Assembly: GCF_026460945.1 (NCBI RefSeq) | Contig: NZ_JAOVZV010000010.1 | Location: 1-64,000 of the forward strand | Reading direction: 5' to 3' | DNA: 64,000 bases | DNA from: Chryseobacterium luquanense | GTDB taxonomy: Bacteria; Bacteroidota; Bacteroidia; Flavobacteriales; Weeksellaceae | Shown: piece after piece, positions 34,579 to 41,538 of the stretch | Numbering within the stretch: the first letter of the stretch is position 1 | Layout: every line of letters starts with the position of its first letter | Notes under the pieces: model-generated | Database searches by the model: none | Seen by the model: the letters and a program-made list of their open reading frames with translations, nothing else | Told to the model about the DNA's origin: nothing | Translations under genes and position numbers: made by a program

Positions 34579-35991
34579 CTACTTCCATCCTCCACCTAAA
34601 GCTCTGTACAAATCTACAATACTGCTTAATCTCTGTCTTTTTACAGACGCAAGATTCAGTTCAGCCTGCAGAGAATTTCCCTGAGCGGTAATCACTTCTA
34701 AATAATTGGCCATTCCGCCTTTGTACAACATTTCGGCACTTTTAATTCCGTTTTTCAATGTTGTAACCTGTTCGCTGGCTTTTTGTTCCTGAACTTTCAG
34801 ACTTTCATTAGAAACCAATGCATCAGAAACTTCACCTACTGCATTCAAAACAGACTGACGGAACGCCAAAACATTTTTCTCTCTCTGAATTTTAGCAACA
34901 TTCAAATCTGTTTTCAACTGTCTTTTCTGAAAAATAGGCTGAGTCAATCCACCTAAAACAGAACCGAACAATGAAGCCGGAATTGAAAACCAGTTATCAA
35001 TTTTAAACGAATTTACACCTCCGTTTGCAGTGATTTTCAATGAAGGGTACATATTTGCCTGAGCAATTCCCACGATTGAATTTGATTCCAATAAAACCAA
35101 TTCCTGCTGACGGACATCCGGACGGCGACTCACCATCGCTGCAGGAAGTCCCGCAGAAATATCCTGTGGTAAAGACGTGTCGGACATTTCAATCGTTCTG
35201 TTGACTTTATTCGGATTTTCACCGACCAAAATACTCAATGCATTTTCCTGAATCGCAATATTTTGCTCCAATTGAGTGATCAAAAGTTCTGTCGATTGCT
35301 TTTGAGCAGTCGCCTGTTGAACTCCCAATGAAGTCGTATCGCCGCTTTGCCACAATTTTTCTGTAAGTGAAAGGGTATTGGTGCTTAAATCTAAATTTGA
35401 TTTTGCAATCTGTAATTGTTTATCAAGCATCAATAAATTATAATAACCTTGAGCAATCGCTGCAACAACTTGTGTCTGAATTGCTTTTGTCGCTTCATAG
35501 GTCTGCAGATACTGCATTTTTGACACTTCCTGCTGGTTTTTTATTTTACCCCAAATGTCTGCTTCCCAAGATAAGTTGAATGCTGCATTATAATCTTCAA
35601 CATGGCTTTGACCTAAGAATAAATTTAAGCTCTGCCCGTTCATGCTGTTCTTTGAAGGCTTTGAAATTTGAGCAGAAACTCCGAAACCAACATCAGGATA
35701 TTGAAGATATTTTGCCTGTTTCAGTTTTTCCTGTGAAGAAGCGACCTGTTTTAAGGCAATTTGTAAATCGTAATTGTTTTTAATTCCTTTTTCGATTAAA
35801 TTTTGCAACATCGGGTCGCTGAAAAACTGTTTCCATTCTAAGTTAGCAACGCTTGCAGTGTCTGCGGTTGCGGTATATTTGAATGTTTCGGGAAGTTCGG
35901 GTTTAGTTTCCTGATAGGCCAATTTTGGCACACAGGAAACTGCACCTAATGCAATCCCAAAAGCGATGATTATATTTTTTACTCTTTTCAT
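34579..35991 (-). CDS. RND efflux outer-membrane channel (OprM/NodT family lipoprotein)
   Basis: A 470-residue TolC-type outer-membrane factor. The lipobox A-V-S-C gives an acylated Cys near residue 20. Repeated helix-rich halves contain the family blocks W-K-Q-F-F-S-D-P-M-L, N-Y-D-L-Q-I-A-L, S-W-E-A-D-I-W-G-K and S-R-R-P-D-V-R-Q-Q-E-L. It is the last gene of the adaptor-pump-channel operon read on the minus strand, 160 nt after the pump. Confidence 0.93.
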   Translation of the reverse strand: MKRVKNIIIAFGIALGAVSCVPKLAYQETKPELPETFKYTATADTASVANLEWKQFFSDPMLQNLIEKGIKNNYDLQIALKQVASSQEKLKQAKYLQYPDVGFGVSAQISKPSKNSMNGQSLNLFLGQSHVEDYNAAFNLSWEADIWGKIKNQQEVSKMQYLQTYEATKAIQTQVVAAIAQGYYNLLMLDKQLQIAKSNLDLSTNTLSLTEKLWQSGDTTSLGVQQATAQKQSTELLITQLEQNIAIQENALSILVGENPNKVNRTIEMSDTSLPQDISAGLPAAMVSRRPDVRQQELVLLESNSIVGIAQANMYPSLKITANGGVNSFKIDNWFSIPASLFGSVLGGLTQPIFQKRQLKTDLNVAKIQREKNVLAFRQSVLNAVGEVSDALVSNESLKVQEQKASEQVTTLKNGIKSAEMLYKGGMANYLEVITAQGNSLQAELNLASVKRQRLSSIVDLYRALGGGWK

Positions 35992-36151: not shown

Positions 36152-39100
36152 TTAATGAGCAGTTGCTAAAAGTTCTGCCTCCAATTTTTGTTTTTGAAGT
36201 CTTTTGTTCTTTCTGCTCGGCATTTTTTCATGTAAATACTGGAAGATCACAAACATTACAGGAATAATGAAAATCCCGAATACAACTCCTGTGAACATTC
36301 CTCCAACTGTACTGATACCGATAGAGTGGTTACCTTTTGCAGCCGCACCTTGTGACCAAACTAATGGAAGCATACCTACGATGAAGGCAAATGAAGTCAT
36401 CAAAATCGGTCTTAAACGTAATCTTGAAGCCTGAAGAGCAGATTCAAGTAATGTTCTTCCTGCTTTTCTTCTTTGTACGGCAAATTCTACAATCAGAATC
36501 GCATTTTTCGCTAACAATCCGACGAGCATGATTAAACCAACTTGAACGTAAATGTTATTATCAATTCCTGCCAATCCTGTGAAAGCAAATACTCCGAAAA
36601 TCCCTGTAGGAATTGTTAAAATAACGGCAAACGGAAGAATATAACTTTCATATTGAGCTGCCAGTAAGAAATACACAAATAAGATACTTAATGCAAAGAT
36701 GAAAGTTGTTTGTCCACCAGTTTTGATTTCCTCACGGGTAATTCCTGTCCATTCATATCCGAAACCTCTTGGAAGTGATTTTTGAGCAGTTTCTTCTACC
36801 GCTTTAATCGCATCTCCGGTACTGTAACCAGGTTTTGGAGTTCCGTTAATTGTAACAGCATTAAATAAGTTGTTTCTTGTTACTGTTTCAGGTCCGAACG
36901 TTCTTTTTAAAGTAACTAATGTTTTTACGGGAACCATTTCGCCAGATTTATTTTTAACATAAATTCCTTCCAAAGAATTTGCATCCGTACGATAAGGAAT
37001 ATCTGCCTGAGCCATTACTCTATAATATTTTCCGAATCTATTGAAATCTGAAACGAAGCTACTTCCGTAATAGATCTGCATTGTCTGCATCAATTCTGTG
37101 ATAGAAACTCCCAATTGATTAGCTTTATCTGAATCTACATCAATCGTATATTGTGGATTTCCAGCTGCGTATGTTGTAAAGGCAAATGCAATTTCCGGAC
37201 GTTTCATTAATTCACCAATAAATGCCTGAGTTGTTGTTCCTAATTGTTCAAAAGAACCGTTGGTTTTATCCTGAAGCATAAATTCGAAACCGGAAACGTT
37301 ACCAAATCCCTGAATGGTAGGGAAGTTGAAGAAGAATGCATTCGCATCTTTTACTTGCGCTACTTTTCCTGTTAATGCTGCTGCAATCTGGTCAGGATCT
37401 TTCATTTCGCCACGTTGCTCATAATCTTTAAGTTTAATGAAACCTGCAGAATATGGAGAAGCGTTTGCGTTACTGATAAAGTTCAGACCATCTGCAACCC
37501 AAAGGTGGTTTTTAGCTTTTTCACCGTTAATGATGTGATCAATCTGTTCAGTTGCTTTGTGTGTTCTGTCTAATGAACTTCCCGGAGGAGTGTTCACAGC
37601 ATACAAGATGAAACCTTGGTCTTCTGTCGGAATAAATCCTGAAGGAGCTTTTTTAATCAAGAAAACACTTGAAGCAATAAGAAGGGCTAAACCACCAATT
37701 GCAACCCATTTATTTTTAATTAAAAATTTAAGGCTATAGATGTATTTTCTGGTCATGTTATCAAAACTTGCATTGAAGGCATTGAAAAATCTTGCTCCAA
37801 AACCTGTTTTCTTACCATGTTCACCGTGTTCTCCCTGAGGATCATTCAGGAACATTGCACATAAAGCCGGACTTAATGTTAAGGCGTTAACCGCAGAAAT
37901 CAGAATTGCAATTACCAATGTAAAGGCAAACTGTCTGTAGAAAACTCCTGCAGGACCCTGCATGAAACCAACCGGAATAAATACGGCACACATCACCAAT
38001 GTAATAGAGATAATCGCACCGGAAATTTCACTCATTGAGCTCATTGTGGCATGTTCCACAGGCATTCCTGTACGTTCCATTTTTGAATGGACAGCTTCCA
38101 CTACAACAATCGCGTCATCTACTACAATACCAATGGCGAGGACTAATGCGAACAACGTCAACATATTAATACTGAATCCAAATAACTGAAGGAAGAAGAA
38201 TGTACCTATAATCGCAACCGGAACGGCAATCGCAGGAATTAATGTAGATCTGAAATCCTGAAGGAAAATAAATACAACAATAAATACCAAAACGAACGCA
38301 ATTACTAAAGTCTCAACAACCTGATGAATAGACGCATCCAGGAAATCCTTAGAATTGTACATGATGATCGGTTCAACTCCTTTTGGAAGGGTGGTTTTCA
38401 TCTGATCAACCTGTTTTTCAATCTCTGTTAAGATTTCATTCGCGTTTGAACCTGCAGTTTGAAGGATGGCAAATCCGGCAACGGGCTTACCATCCACTCT
38501 GTTAGCTGCTGTGTATGTGTAAGAACCAAATTCTACTCTTGCCACATCTTTCAGTCTTAAGAAAGAACCGTCGCTGTTCGCTTTGATGGCAATGTTTTCG
38601 TAGTCTTCGTTTTTATTTAATTTACCTTTATACTTTAAAATGTATTCGTAAGTTTCCTTACTTCCTTGTCCAAGACGACCTGGAGCAGCTTCTAAGTTGT
38701 GATCTTTTACTGCTGCCAAAACTTCCTGTGGAGAAAGATTGTTAGCCGCTAATCTATCCGGTTTCAGCCAAAGTCTCATTGAATAATCTCTCGTTCCGAA
38801 AACCTGCGCCTGAGCAACCCCGGGAATACGTTGGATTTGTGGAATAACGTTGATTTTCAAATAATTCTGAAGGAAAAGCTCATCATATTGTTTTGGGTCA
38901 TCACTTGATAATCCCATGAACATAATCATACTGTTCTGAACTTTCTGCGTGGAAATTCCCGCTTGTACAACCTCCTGTGGAAGCTGGCTCATCGCTTTGG
39001 ATACACGGTTTTGAACGTTTACGGCTGCGTTATCTGCATCTGATCCCTGTTTGAAAAATACACTCAAGGTCATGGTTCCATCATTACTGGAATTTGATGT

Positions 39101-39334
39101 CATGTACGTCATGTTCTCAACTCCGTTTACCGCTTCTTCGATCGGTGTAGCTACCGAACGAGCTACAACTTCCGCGTTCGCTCCCGGATAAAATGCTGTC
39201 ACCTGAACACTCGGCGGAGCAATATCCGGAAAGAGGGCGATGGGTAAATTAAAGAGGGACAATGCCCCCAATAATAAAAGTATTATGGAGATGACCGTTG
39301 AAAGTACCGGTCTTTCTATAAATTGTTTTAACAT
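36152..39334 (-). CDS. RND multidrug efflux pump (HAE1 family, AcrB-like)
   Basis: A 1060-residue inner-membrane pump that exports hydrophobic or amphiphilic drugs using the proton gradient. Starts F-I-E-R-P-V-L-S-T-V; the proton-relay Asp pair is in G-I-V-V-D-D-A-I-V-V-V-E, and the conserved Lys is in L-L-A-K-N-A-I-L-I-V-E-F. Twelve membrane helices and two large periplasmic loops fit the family. It lies 40 nt downstream of the adaptor and is likely controlled by the TetR gene further upstream. Confidence 0.96.
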   Translation of the reverse strand: MLKQFIERPVLSTVISIILLLLGALSLFNLPIALFPDIAPPSVQVTAFYPGANAEVVARSVATPIEEAVNGVENMTYMTSNSSNDGTMTLSVFFKQGSDADNAAVNVQNRVSKAMSQLPQEVVQAGISTQKVQNSMIMFMGLSSDDPKQYDELFLQNYLKINVIPQIQRIPGVAQAQVFGTRDYSMRLWLKPDRLAANNLSPQEVLAAVKDHNLEAAPGRLGQGSKETYEYILKYKGKLNKNEDYENIAIKANSDGSFLRLKDVARVEFGSYTYTAANRVDGKPVAGFAILQTAGSNANEILTEIEKQVDQMKTTLPKGVEPIIMYNSKDFLDASIHQVVETLVIAFVLVFIVVFIFLQDFRSTLIPAIAVPVAIIGTFFFLQLFGFSINMLTLFALVLAIGIVVDDAIVVVEAVHSKMERTGMPVEHATMSSMSEISGAIISITLVMCAVFIPVGFMQGPAGVFYRQFAFTLVIAILISAVNALTLSPALCAMFLNDPQGEHGEHGKKTGFGARFFNAFNASFDNMTRKYIYSLKFLIKNKWVAIGGLALLIASSVFLIKKAPSGFIPTEDQGFILYAVNTPPGSSLDRTHKATEQIDHIINGEKAKNHLWVADGLNFISNANASPYSAGFIKLKDYEQRGEMKDPDQIAAALTGKVAQVKDANAFFFNFPTIQGFGNVSGFEFMLQDKTNGSFEQLGTTTQAFIGELMKRPEIAFAFTTYAAGNPQYTIDVDSDKANQLGVSITELMQTMQIYYGSSFVSDFNRFGKYYRVMAQADIPYRTDANSLEGIYVKNKSGEMVPVKTLVTLKRTFGPETVTRNNLFNAVTINGTPKPGYSTGDAIKAVEETAQKSLPRGFGYEWTGITREEIKTGGQTTFIFALSILFVYFLLAAQYESYILPFAVILTIPTGIFGVFAFTGLAGIDNNIYVQVGLIMLVGLLAKNAILIVEFAVQRRKAGRTLLESALQASRLRLRPILMTSFAFIVGMLPLVWSQGAAAKGNHSIGISTVGGMFTGVVFGIFIIPVMFVIFQYLHEKMPSRKNKRLQKQKLEAELLATAH

Positions 39335-39374: not shown

Positions 39375-40535
39375 TTACAACGGTTTTGCTTTAAGCAAAC
39401 TGTCAGAAGAAATAGGTTTTGCTTTGATAGAAACTCCGTCTTTTAAGCTACCCAATCCTACATAAACGATTTTCTCTCCCGGCTGTAAACCTTCAGAAAT
39501 GAAGTAGTAGTTTTCAGTTTTCCCTGAAATTTTGATAGGCTTGCTGGTTACTTTCTGATCTTTTCCGACTACGTAAACGTAAGTTTTATCCTGAATTTCG
39601 AAAGTAGATTCCTGTGGAATTACCACTGCATTTGACATTAATTGAGGCATACGAACACGTCCTGTATTTCCTGTTCTCAATGTTCCGTTTGAATTTGGGA
39701 AAACTGCACGAACACTGATGGCGCCTGTTGTTTTATCAAATTGTCCGTCAACAATAGTCATTTTACCTTTTTGAGGATAAATACTGTTGTCAGCGATTAC
39801 CAATTCTACCATTGGCATATCTTTTAATTTTTCTTCTAAAGTTGCTCCCTGATATTTATTTTGAAAAGCAATAAAATCAAGTTCACTTAAAGAAAAGTAA
39901 GCGTAAATTTCGCTGATGTCGGATAATAAAGTCAATGGACTAGGATCTGTTCTTGAAATCAGACTTCCTTTTTTGTAAGGAATTCTTCCAATGTATCCGC
40001 TTACCGGAGCTGTGATGGTTGTAAATCCTACATTGATTTTAGCACCACCAACAGAAGCTTTCGCCTGTGAAGCTGCGGCAACTGCGGCTGCATAATTTGC
40101 TTTTGCCGTTCTTAATTGTACATCAGAAACTACTTTTGCTGCAACAAGAGGTTCCAGTCTGTCAACCTCAACTTTTGCTTTTTGAATATTTGCGTTGGCA
40201 ACTTGTAAATTAGCATTTGCCATATTCATTTGCTCTCCGTAAGCTCTTGAATCTATTTTGAATAAAGGTTGTCCGGCTCTTACATAAGCACCTTCTTCCA
40301 CATAAATTCTATCTAAATATCCGTCTACCTGCGATCTGATTTCCACATTGTTTTTTCCTTCCAAAGCGGTTGGGAATTCCTGATATGTTGTAGCAGGAGA
40401 CGAAATTACTGTATAAACGGGCAATTCAGGAGTGGGAGGAGCCATATTGCTTCCTTCGGCGGCTTTTGTGCAGTTTTGTAAAAGGATAATACTTGATATA
40501 AGTACGATAAACCTTATTTTTCCAGGTATTTTCAT
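39375..40535 (-). CDS. RND efflux periplasmic adaptor (membrane fusion protein)
   Basis: A 386-residue lipoprotein (lipobox L-Q-N-C) of the MFP family: lipoyl-like halves V-E-I-R-S-Q-V-D-G-Y-L-D and T-T-I-T-A-P-V-S-G-Y-I-G-R flank an alpha-hairpin (about 100-160), followed by a beta-barrel and a membrane-proximal domain. It joins the pump to the outer-membrane channel. It heads the three-gene operon; three palindromic operators lie in the 347-nt gap upstream. Confidence 0.94.
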   Translation of the reverse strand: MKIPGKIRFIVLISSIILLQNCTKAAEGSNMAPPTPELPVYTVISSPATTYQEFPTALEGKNNVEIRSQVDGYLDRIYVEEGAYVRAGQPLFKIDSRAYGEQMNMANANLQVANANIQKAKVEVDRLEPLVAAKVVSDVQLRTAKANYAAAVAAASQAKASVGGAKINVGFTTITAPVSGYIGRIPYKKGSLISRTDPSPLTLLSDISEIYAYFSLSELDFIAFQNKYQGATLEEKLKDMPMVELVIADNSIYPQKGKMTIVDGQFDKTTGAISVRAVFPNSNGTLRTGNTGRVRMPQLMSNAVVIPQESTFEIQDKTYVYVVGKDQKVTSKPIKISGKTENYYFISEGLQPGEKIVYVGLGSLKDGVSIKAKPISSDSLLKAKPL

Positions 40536-40608
40536 TTTTAATTTAAGTTTTTAATGAAGTGTTAAATTTATTAATGTTGTTGTTTGATTTGTATTCCGTT
40601 ATTTTTAC

Positions 40609-40619
40609 TAACACTGTTA
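40609..40619. promoter_or_regulatory. TetR operator candidate O1
   Basis: Palindrome TAACACTGTTA (with flanking C and A), 74 nt upstream of the adaptor ATG. It shares its core with three other sites near this gene. Confidence 0.7.
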
Positions 40620-40730
40620 ATTTAATGTCAAAAAATATCGGAGCTAATTGGCGGTTTAAATTGCTATTTTCATGATGTTAAATTTAGTTTAGAATATTGA
40701 GTAGTAGACAAAAACACATGTAATATTTAC

Positions 40731-40741
40731 TAACAGTGTTA
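40731..40741. promoter_or_regulatory. TetR operator candidate O2
   Basis: Palindrome TAACAGTGTTA, starting exactly 122 bp from O1. Confidence 0.7.
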
Positions 40742-40852
40742 ATGTGAAGTGAAGAAAATTGCCAGCAGTAGTGATAAAAAGTTATATTTCATTTTTTAGA
40801 TTTTTATTTATAAATAAATGGAAAGGATGAATTAATTACGTGTTACTTTTCC

Positions 40853-40863
40853 TAACGGTGTTA
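40853..40863. promoter_or_regulatory. TetR operator candidate O3
   Basis: Near-palindrome TAACGGTGTTA, exactly 122 bp from O2 and 19 nt past the tetR stop. Confidence 0.6.
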
Positions 40864-40882
40864 AGTTTGGATTCAAAAAAAA

Positions 40883-41479
40883 TCACAAAGACTTAATGAA
40901 AGCAGTAACTGTTTCATCCAAAGTCGTCTTGTTCATCGTTGAAGGAATATCGTCATTACGCATCATCATAATCGAAATCAAACCATGCACCGCTGAAAAT
41001 AATGCGTGAGAAGAGTGACATGCATTATCAGGATTTGAACCTTTTTTCTTGATAATCTCATAAGTACACTCATAAAGCATATCCTGAAAAGATGAAAATT
41101 CCTCCTTCATCATTCCTTTTCCGCTGCACTGCATTCCTAGACCAAACATCAGTTGGTAATATTCTTTATTTTTAAAAGCGAATTTCCAATACGCATCCAC
41201 AATGGCAACAATTTGTTCTTCTGGAGTGTCATGTTTTTTCTGGGCTTTTAATAATTCGATATGAAGACAGTGGAAACCATTTAAAGAAATTTCAAATAAA
41301 ATAGCTTCCTTGTTTTCAAAATAATCATAAACTACAGGAGCACTGTATTCAATAGCATCGGCAATTTTTCTTATCGAAAGAGACGCCCAACCTTCTGTTT
41401 TAGCCAAAGTAAAAGCCGCGTCCAAAATATTTGCACGAGTATTTTCCTTCTCTCTTTGACGACGTTCATGTACTCCCAT
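40883..41479 (-). CDS. TetR/AcrR family repressor of the efflux operon
   Basis: A 198-residue regulator with an N-terminal helix-turn-helix: I-L-D-A-A-F-T-L-A (18-26), L-S-I-R-K-I-A-D-A-I-E-Y-S-A-P-V-V-Y-D-Y-F-E-N-K with the recognition helix about 45-54. The C-terminal ligand-binding half is divergent. It lies directly upstream of the RND operon on the same strand, and a palindromic site abuts its own promoter (41493-41503), indicating autorepression plus repression of the pump. The inducer is unknown. Confidence 0.92.
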   Translation of the reverse strand: MGVHERRQREKENTRANILDAAFTLAKTEGWASLSIRKIADAIEYSAPVVYDYFENKEAILFEISLNGFHCLHIELLKAQKKHDTPEEQIVAIVDAYWKFAFKNKEYYQLMFGLGMQCSGKGMMKEEFSSFQDMLYECTYEIIKKKGSNPDNACHSSHALFSAVHGLISIMMMRNDDIPSTMNKTTLDETVTAFIKSL

Positions 41480-41492
41480 GATTTCTTTTTTC

Positions 41493-41503
41493 TAACAGCG
41501 TTA
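41493..41503. promoter_or_regulatory. TetR operator candidate O4 (autoregulation)
   Basis: Palindrome TAACAGCGTTA lies between the tetR -7 box (41505-41512) and the tetR ATG (41479), covering the expected transcription start. Confidence 0.75.
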
Positions 41504-41504
41504 G

Positions 41505-41538
41505 CAAAACTACTGACTTTTTACTATACTTTCCAAAC
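41505..41538 (-). promoter_or_regulatory. Promoter of tetR
   Basis: Minus-strand TTG (41536-41538), 23 nt, TAGTTTTG (41505-41512). The operator O4 begins one base downstream of the -7 box. Confidence 0.65.

Follow-up and report, generated by a model that had tools for sequence, protein, structure and literature searches.

TetR-family proteins acting as local repressors of RND pumps were represented by systems of the AcrR-acrAB, VexR and MexZ type. Arrangements in which several operators served one repressor near one promoter region were familiar from lac O1-O3 and from the lambda operators. Here, we analysed a locus of Chryseobacterium luquanense that is probably a variation on the TetR-repressed control of an RND pump, with an added leader array containing mini-ORFs. 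No paper on this locus was found in the literature searched, the coverage of which was partial and did not prove absence.

Genes of the locus

The window (the whole stretch of 64,000 nucleotides that was analysed) contained the following genes, given in the order of their transcription:

40883-41479, minus strand: tetR, TetR-family repressor of 198 aa (TetR_N, E=3.8e-12; TetR_C_33, E=6.9e-08)
39375-40535, minus strand: RND periplasmic adaptor, a membrane fusion protein (RND_mfp TIGR01730, E=3.9e-77)
36152-39334, minus strand: RND transporter of the AcrB type (ACR_tran, 1073 bits)
34579-35991, minus strand: outer-membrane efflux channel (TIGR01845, E=7.6e-89)

The regulator belonged to the TetR family by its N-terminal DNA-binding domain (PF00440, 46.2 bits against a cut-off of 24), and its closest named relatives were from Chryseobacterium species (93-95% identity). 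The adaptor, transporter and channel genes were serially arranged, as in a tripartite RND efflux operon. They were located downstream of tetR on the same strand, so that regulator and pump were codirectional and not divergent.

Operator sites and their link to the repressor

The motif TAACNNNGTTA occurred at exactly four sites of the 64-kb window (40609, 40731, 40853 and 41493), where 0.91 were expected by chance and four or more were found in 1 of 100 shuffles. Similarly, TAACRSTGTTA had 6 strand-matches compared with 0.06 expected. The presence of the four palindromes was confirmed and is not attributable to chance. Two observations of the initial annotation were reproduced: the three palindromes between tetR and the pump were spaced by 122 and 122 bp, and the fourth site was located one base beyond the tetR -7 box, with TAGTTTTG at 41512-41505 of the minus strand followed by C at 41504 and then by the operator.

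Alignment of relatives demonstrated that the operator exceeded the palindrome. On the pump strand, it had the asymmetric form TTAAC-RSY-GTTAGnAAAAnTAAC of about 22-23 bp, and at site A the flank was in the opposite orientation, doubling as the -7 box. The sites were as follows:

41493-41503, no strand assigned: operator A (putative autoregulation), separated by one base from the -7 box, upstream of tetR in 113/113 loci
40842-40864, minus strand: operator B, extended site TTAACACCGTTAGGAAAAGTAAC with 0 mismatches, core palindrome 40853-40863
40720-40742, minus strand: operator C, extended site TTAACACTGTTAGTAAATATTAC with 2 mismatches, core 40731-40741
40598-40620, minus strand: operator D, extended site TTAACAGTGTTAGTAAAAATAAC with 0 mismatches, core 40609-40619

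A genome-wide scan for the motif had been proposed in the initial annotation, and the matches were not abundant. TAACRSYGTTA was present at 7 places in the genome, namely the four sites of the locus and three within open frames. The extended form TTAACRSYGTTAGNAAAANTAAC, allowing up to 3 mismatches, was confined to these four sites in the 4.35-Mb genome (five rows were returned, one site being read in both orientations). A wider regulon was rejected, since the three other core palindromes sat in open frames and did not match the extended site.

We surveyed 148 genomes of the family, 38 of which had a tetR orthologue. Exact matches to TTAACRSYGTTAGNAAAA were found in 29 of the 148 genomes. The tetR gene was also present in 28 of these, and of 48 matches in total, 47 were located beside it; the reversed pattern, used as a control on the same genomes, produced 3 matches. 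Ten tetR genomes had no exact match because the pattern was strict. The one match away from tetR was in genome G201. This genome had no tetR orthologue and carried a lone exact extended operator (G201:C1:821420-821437). Within Chryseobacterium, 3 of 98 genomes were without a close tetR; the adaptor paralogues there reached just 40-42%, and the operator site was absent from all three. The co-occurrence of gene and site supported the palindromes as putative operators of this local TetR, with the pump side probably served by the three sites other than A. The separate autoregulation of the repressor, suggested in the initial annotation, was in agreement with the position of site A on the tetR promoter, where it abutted the -7 box in 113/113 loci.

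The same comparison bore on whether the palindromes could be recombination sites of an integron-like cassette array, as the repeated GTTA/TAAC sites separating small ORFs might suggest. We found this hardly credible, because the sites had a constant position next to a single tetR/pump pair, site A was on a promoter, and tetR accompanied the site in nearly all genomes that had it. Moreover, the integron integrase model TIGR02249 had 12 matches in the whole genome, none above the cut-off and the best scoring 115.6 of 265 bits, and control genomes also produced matches below the cut-off. With a fixed locus and no integrase over the cut-off, an integron array was strongly disfavoured.

A second TetR encoded by the same genome (30% identical) had a related palindrome, TGAACNNNGTTCA, on either side of its gene, 20 nt before the start and 17 nt after the stop:

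L160:2591-2603 and L160:3274-3286 (G000:C1, near 77590 and 78274): palindromes flanking the second TetR gene, TGAACAACGTTCA after the stop and TGAACGTTGTTCA before the start

The next codirectional gene was FAD-dependent reductase-like, as judged by eye. This layout corresponded to A plus B of the main locus but had no array. It supports the view that A and B represent the basic arrangement, to which the extra units were added later.

Conserved architecture and free spacing

Among relatives, 150 loci were collected (80 of them named), and 113 distinct regions containing both tetR and the adaptor gene were kept in most tests; the remaining 37 were dropped as duplicates of another region or because the adaptor gene was out of reach. 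The counts were uncorrected for relatedness, and the tree was built with FastTree from 113 rows. In addition to the invariable site A, operator B started 19-21 nt past the tetR stop in 112/113 loci, and the last operator (D) ended 60-85 nt ahead of the adaptor ATG across the 113 loci. There were 96 loci with three intergenic sites, 11 with two and 6 with four. In one of the two-site loci (L014) the first site was mismatched, and but for this the locus would have been scored as having three; in L019, a mismatched third site was accepted in the count.

The distances between sites varied freely. Between neighbouring sites, 54 different spacings were observed, the shortest being 67 bp and the longest 203 bp, and in the 96 three-site loci the two gaps were 67-132 and 80-142 bp, being equal in 4 of them versus 1.5 expected. 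In the nearest relative, whose TetR was identical, four intergenic sites were spaced by 128, 113 and 131 bp, and alignment demonstrated that a whole unit differed between the sister species. Accordingly, the exact 122-bp spacing was rejected as a signal. It appears to be an accident of this species, and the meaning that the initial annotation had attached to it found no support.

The same annotation had proposed a mechanism of looping or cooperative repression of the pump, which would act through TetR dimers at the spaced sites. The presence of at least three sites in 102/113 loci was in its favor, as was the B-C spacing considered alone (Rayleigh R=0.23 at 10.5 bp, p~0.006, uncorrected for relatedness). 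However, other periods fitted the B-C gaps slightly better (R=0.27 at 7 bp and 0.25 at 11 bp), and across all 221 adjacent gaps helical phasing was weak or absent (R=0.10, p~0.09). The 122-bp gap itself corresponds to 11.6 helical turns and is out of phase, and the material between the sites was conserved. We therefore considered looping unsupported and very unlikely.

Promoters and leaders

The promoter -7 consensus, placed at -12 to -5, was taken from PMC9723704. At this locus, a canonical promoter (9/9) was associated with site A, and the leader of the adaptor gene had a distinctive composition:

41533-41537, minus strand: TTTGG, -33 element of the tetR promoter, canonical promoter 9/9 in 113/113 loci
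41505-41512, minus strand: TAGTTTTG, -7 box of the tetR promoter, starting 9 nt before the operator in 113/113 loci
40536-40597, minus strand: leader preceding the pump adaptor gene, devoid of G, with G at 0 in the -60 to -15 stretch
40874-40882, minus strand: T-tract TTTTTTTTG preceding operator B and adjoining the tetR stop codon, with five or more T in 113/113 loci
40629-40635, minus strand: T-tract TTTTTTG before operator D, at least five T at D in 104/113 loci

Sites B, C and D had no TAnnTTTG box of canonical form at a constant position in the 113 loci, their scores of 6-8 of 9 being scattered. The T-tracts stood at a fixed distance ahead of B and D; at C, 57 of 108 sites had one of at least five T, and the C site of the window was without a run of five. 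Across operator D, the G content fell from 9.9% to 1.8%, decreasing in 111/113 loci, and the adaptor leader had the lowest G of the 34 genes of the window (mean 10.9%). The G drop and the G-free leader provided indirect support for transcription starts near the intergenic operators.

These data could also be read as an array of roadblocks. In this case, the pump would be transcribed mainly by read-through from the tetR promoter, TetR bound at B, C and D would halt RNA polymerase, D or none of the three would be a promoter, and the mini-ORFs described below would hold ribosomes on the long intergenic RNA. The restriction of the canonical promoter to A, the codirectional genes and the position of B immediately past the tetR stop agreed with such a scheme. 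On the other hand, the fixed-distance T-tracts at B and D together with the G drop after D resembled repeated promoter/leader starts, and the operator-to-ATG distance of the adaptor gene recurred in each unit. On balance, we regarded roadblocks as rather unlikely.

Antisense promoters directed from the intergenic sites were considered because of a reverse-strand TAnTTTTnC, and were rejected by eye, since its eighth base was not G-biased and it had no -33 partner. This sequence was taken to be a repressor contact, because site A had the same flank in the other orientation. An RNA element was rejected as well: Rfam had no match near the gathering score, and leader RNA was unfolded, the mean folding z of four stretches, computed over 29 of the 113 loci, being +0.73, +1.02, -0.19 and -0.26.

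Mini-ORFs between the sites

The initial annotation had seen the sites but missed repeated leader units with mini-ORFs between them. Two such ORFs were present in the window:

40739-40792, minus strand: mini-ORF 1, 17 codons, MKYNFLSLLLAIFFTSH; 25 distinct 17-codon versions, pN/pS 0.27
40656-40673, minus strand: mini-ORF 2, 5 codons, MKIAI and a stop; start codon and very short ORF in 111/113 loci

The TAA that ends mini-ORF 1 also opened the operator that follows, C, as its first three bases. The 17-codon ORF had the form MK(Y/H/T)(D/N)FFTLILAIFFPYH or similar, was often in the first unit, and was found in 35 of the 150 loci. Its pN/pS of 0.27 was to be compared with 1.18 and 3.59 in the other frames, and for codons 2-10 only 1 of 200 column shuffles was as low. 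This comparison indicated that it is probably translated and under coding selection, and a translated short ORF ahead of the regulated gene is also a feature of leader-peptide attenuation. On the tree, its distribution was patchy, with 26 of 113 rows having it and 10 changes, which fits an old unit with several losses.

In the last unit, before operator D, it was the start codon and the quick stop that appeared to be conserved by the same kind of comparison. An ATG was located 45-72 nt past the operator in 104/113 last units, whereas triplets of the same letters were found in 5-49 (the highest count, for TGA, was from a triplet that overlaps ATGA). Of 107 ORFs, 106 had at most nine codons, versus 53% for all positions, with five codons in 68 and nine in 20, and their stop codons interchanged (TAA 76, TGA 29, TAG 2). 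The five-codon peptides had no sequence conservation (pN/pS 0.66, with 63 of 300 shuffles as low), and peptide selection on them was thus unsupported. Among first units of at least 100 bp, 69 of 76 had an ATG 45-72 nt past the operator, and in 17 of 72 such units with an ATG there, the ORF was a start codon followed directly by a stop. The first unit was without an ATG at the expected place in 26/113 loci, mostly in short units.

The bases upstream of the mini-ORF ATG were A-rich at -3 (83%) and at -13 to -11 (63-79%), with a background of 43%, and A at -6 was present in 29-31%. According to PMC6847099, the initiation signal of Flavobacterium johnsoniae consists of A at -3, -6 and -13 to -11, and AUG is scarcer than expected near start codons in this phylum. 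This scarcity makes the conserved extra AUGs more notable.

Conserved mini-ORFs, one of them with a conserved hydrophobic peptide, and the start-stop ORFs of first units raised the question of a drug-sensing leader-peptide array, in which ribosomes slowed by an antibiotic on the mini-ORFs would switch the pump as a second input beside TetR. A precedent was toiL of E. coli, which reacts to several ribosome inhibitors, some of them stalling at its start codon (PMC12121999). However, most of the peptides were unconserved, and the leader, less folded than shuffles in the two stretches with positive z, offered no hairpin switch; alternative RNA structures or a terminator after the ORF, as expected of leader-peptide attenuation, were not found in the 29 loci analysed for folding. 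We considered such a switch improbable.

Repeated units and their duplication

A 38-nt stretch was shared in register by 40598-40635, 40720-40757 and 40842-40879, the second and third copies having 79% and 71% identity to the first. The earlier statement that the sequence between the sites was not a tandem repeat was correct letter by letter, but it overlooked this shared stretch and a duplication of ~120 bp in a relative. In that relative (L069), intergenic units 2 and 3 were identical at 68 of 72 positions between the elements (z=14.3). The L069 duplication was 94%-identical and recent, and included the operator and an MEMTI mini-ORF. Elsewhere, similarity between paralogous units was not above shuffles in the 10 loci compared, including the other L069 pairs (z from -0.8 to 2.2). 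Thus, comparison pointed to the gain of units by tandem duplication, and the regularity of the array was attributed to duplication with later divergence everywhere but in the constrained parts. The palindromes probably mark diverged tandem copies of the control region of the pump, usually with a tiny gene each, across many relatives.

A TAAC occurred 18 nt past the operator start at 109/113 B, 98/108 C and 83/113 D sites. Most units thus had a half-site at +18, and binding of two adjacent dimers may be possible. In L036 (E+141, E+159) and L041 (E+140, E+158; counted from the tetR stop), a second full palindrome was located exactly 18 bp past a middle operator.

A model of pump control

We considered it fairly probable that an autoregulated TetR represses tandemly duplicated promoter/operator/leader modules, the last of which drives the pump while the upstream ones make leader RNA with mini-ORFs. 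TetR would bind the ~22-bp asymmetric site and control both itself and the RND pump, limiting its own synthesis at site A, which would overlap the tetR transcription start region. A unit would comprise a T-tract, an operator, a G-poor leader of ~60 nt and a start codon, and its tandem duplication would have produced two to four units, mostly of 100-140 bp. When a pump substrate releases TetR, the last operator, D, would serve the pump adaptor, and units B and C would give longer leader RNAs with translated mini-ORFs. In this model, B, C and D may each start transcription, and the extra modules may add both output and tightness, the latter because the upstream transcripts would also pass the downstream operators. 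Ribosomes on the mini-ORFs may keep the leader RNA occupied, either protecting it or blocking Rho, and their translation could make the output respond to ribosome inhibitors.

Several observations were at odds with these modules. Unlike A, the sites B, C and D had no fixed canonical box, and the T-tract was missing at about half of the C sites. Moreover, the five-codon peptides were unconserved, first units without the expected ATG were not rare, A at -6 was scarce, and unit-to-unit similarity was confined to L069.

A more speculative possibility, which we thought unlikely, was a composite sensor in which TetR gates the number of firing modules and the tandem mini-ORFs read the state of the ribosomes. 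The start-stop, five-codon and 17-codon types would then have been reshuffled between species. G-poor, C-bearing leaders can load Rho, and the unstructured leaders of this composition might be Rho-loading sites covered by ribosomes on the mini-ORFs. If so, drugs that target the ribosome would increase expression of the pump by two routes, via translation and via the repressor.

Under the favored model of duplicated modules, a repressor-controlled pump region could expand through duplication of its promoter, operator and start codon. The natural range of units among Chryseobacterium, Epilithonimonas and a related genus would allow one to test whether the number of units or the type of mini-ORF sets efflux induction. 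The locus also contained conserved micro-ORFs passed over by annotation, including a 17-residue peptide apparently under selection and start-stop ORFs.

Comparison with known systems

As in systems of the AcrR, VexR and MexZ type, a TetR-type regulator adjoined an RND operon and had a palindromic operator on its own promoter. In contrast to them, the regulator was codirectional with the pump and upstream of it, and two to four more operators were spread across a leader array of mini-ORFs throughout the genus. The presence of multiple operators for one repressor was shared with lac O1-O3 and lambda; however, the spacing here was free and had no clear phasing, and conserved expression signals were located between the sites. 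Finally, as with the leader peptides and uORFs of ErmCL, VmlR and toiL (PMC12121999, PMC9226507), short leader ORFs preceded a resistance determinant. The locus differed from these examples in that no leader hairpin was seen and most peptides were unconserved, and its mini-ORFs were several and in tandem, each behind an operator of the repressor.
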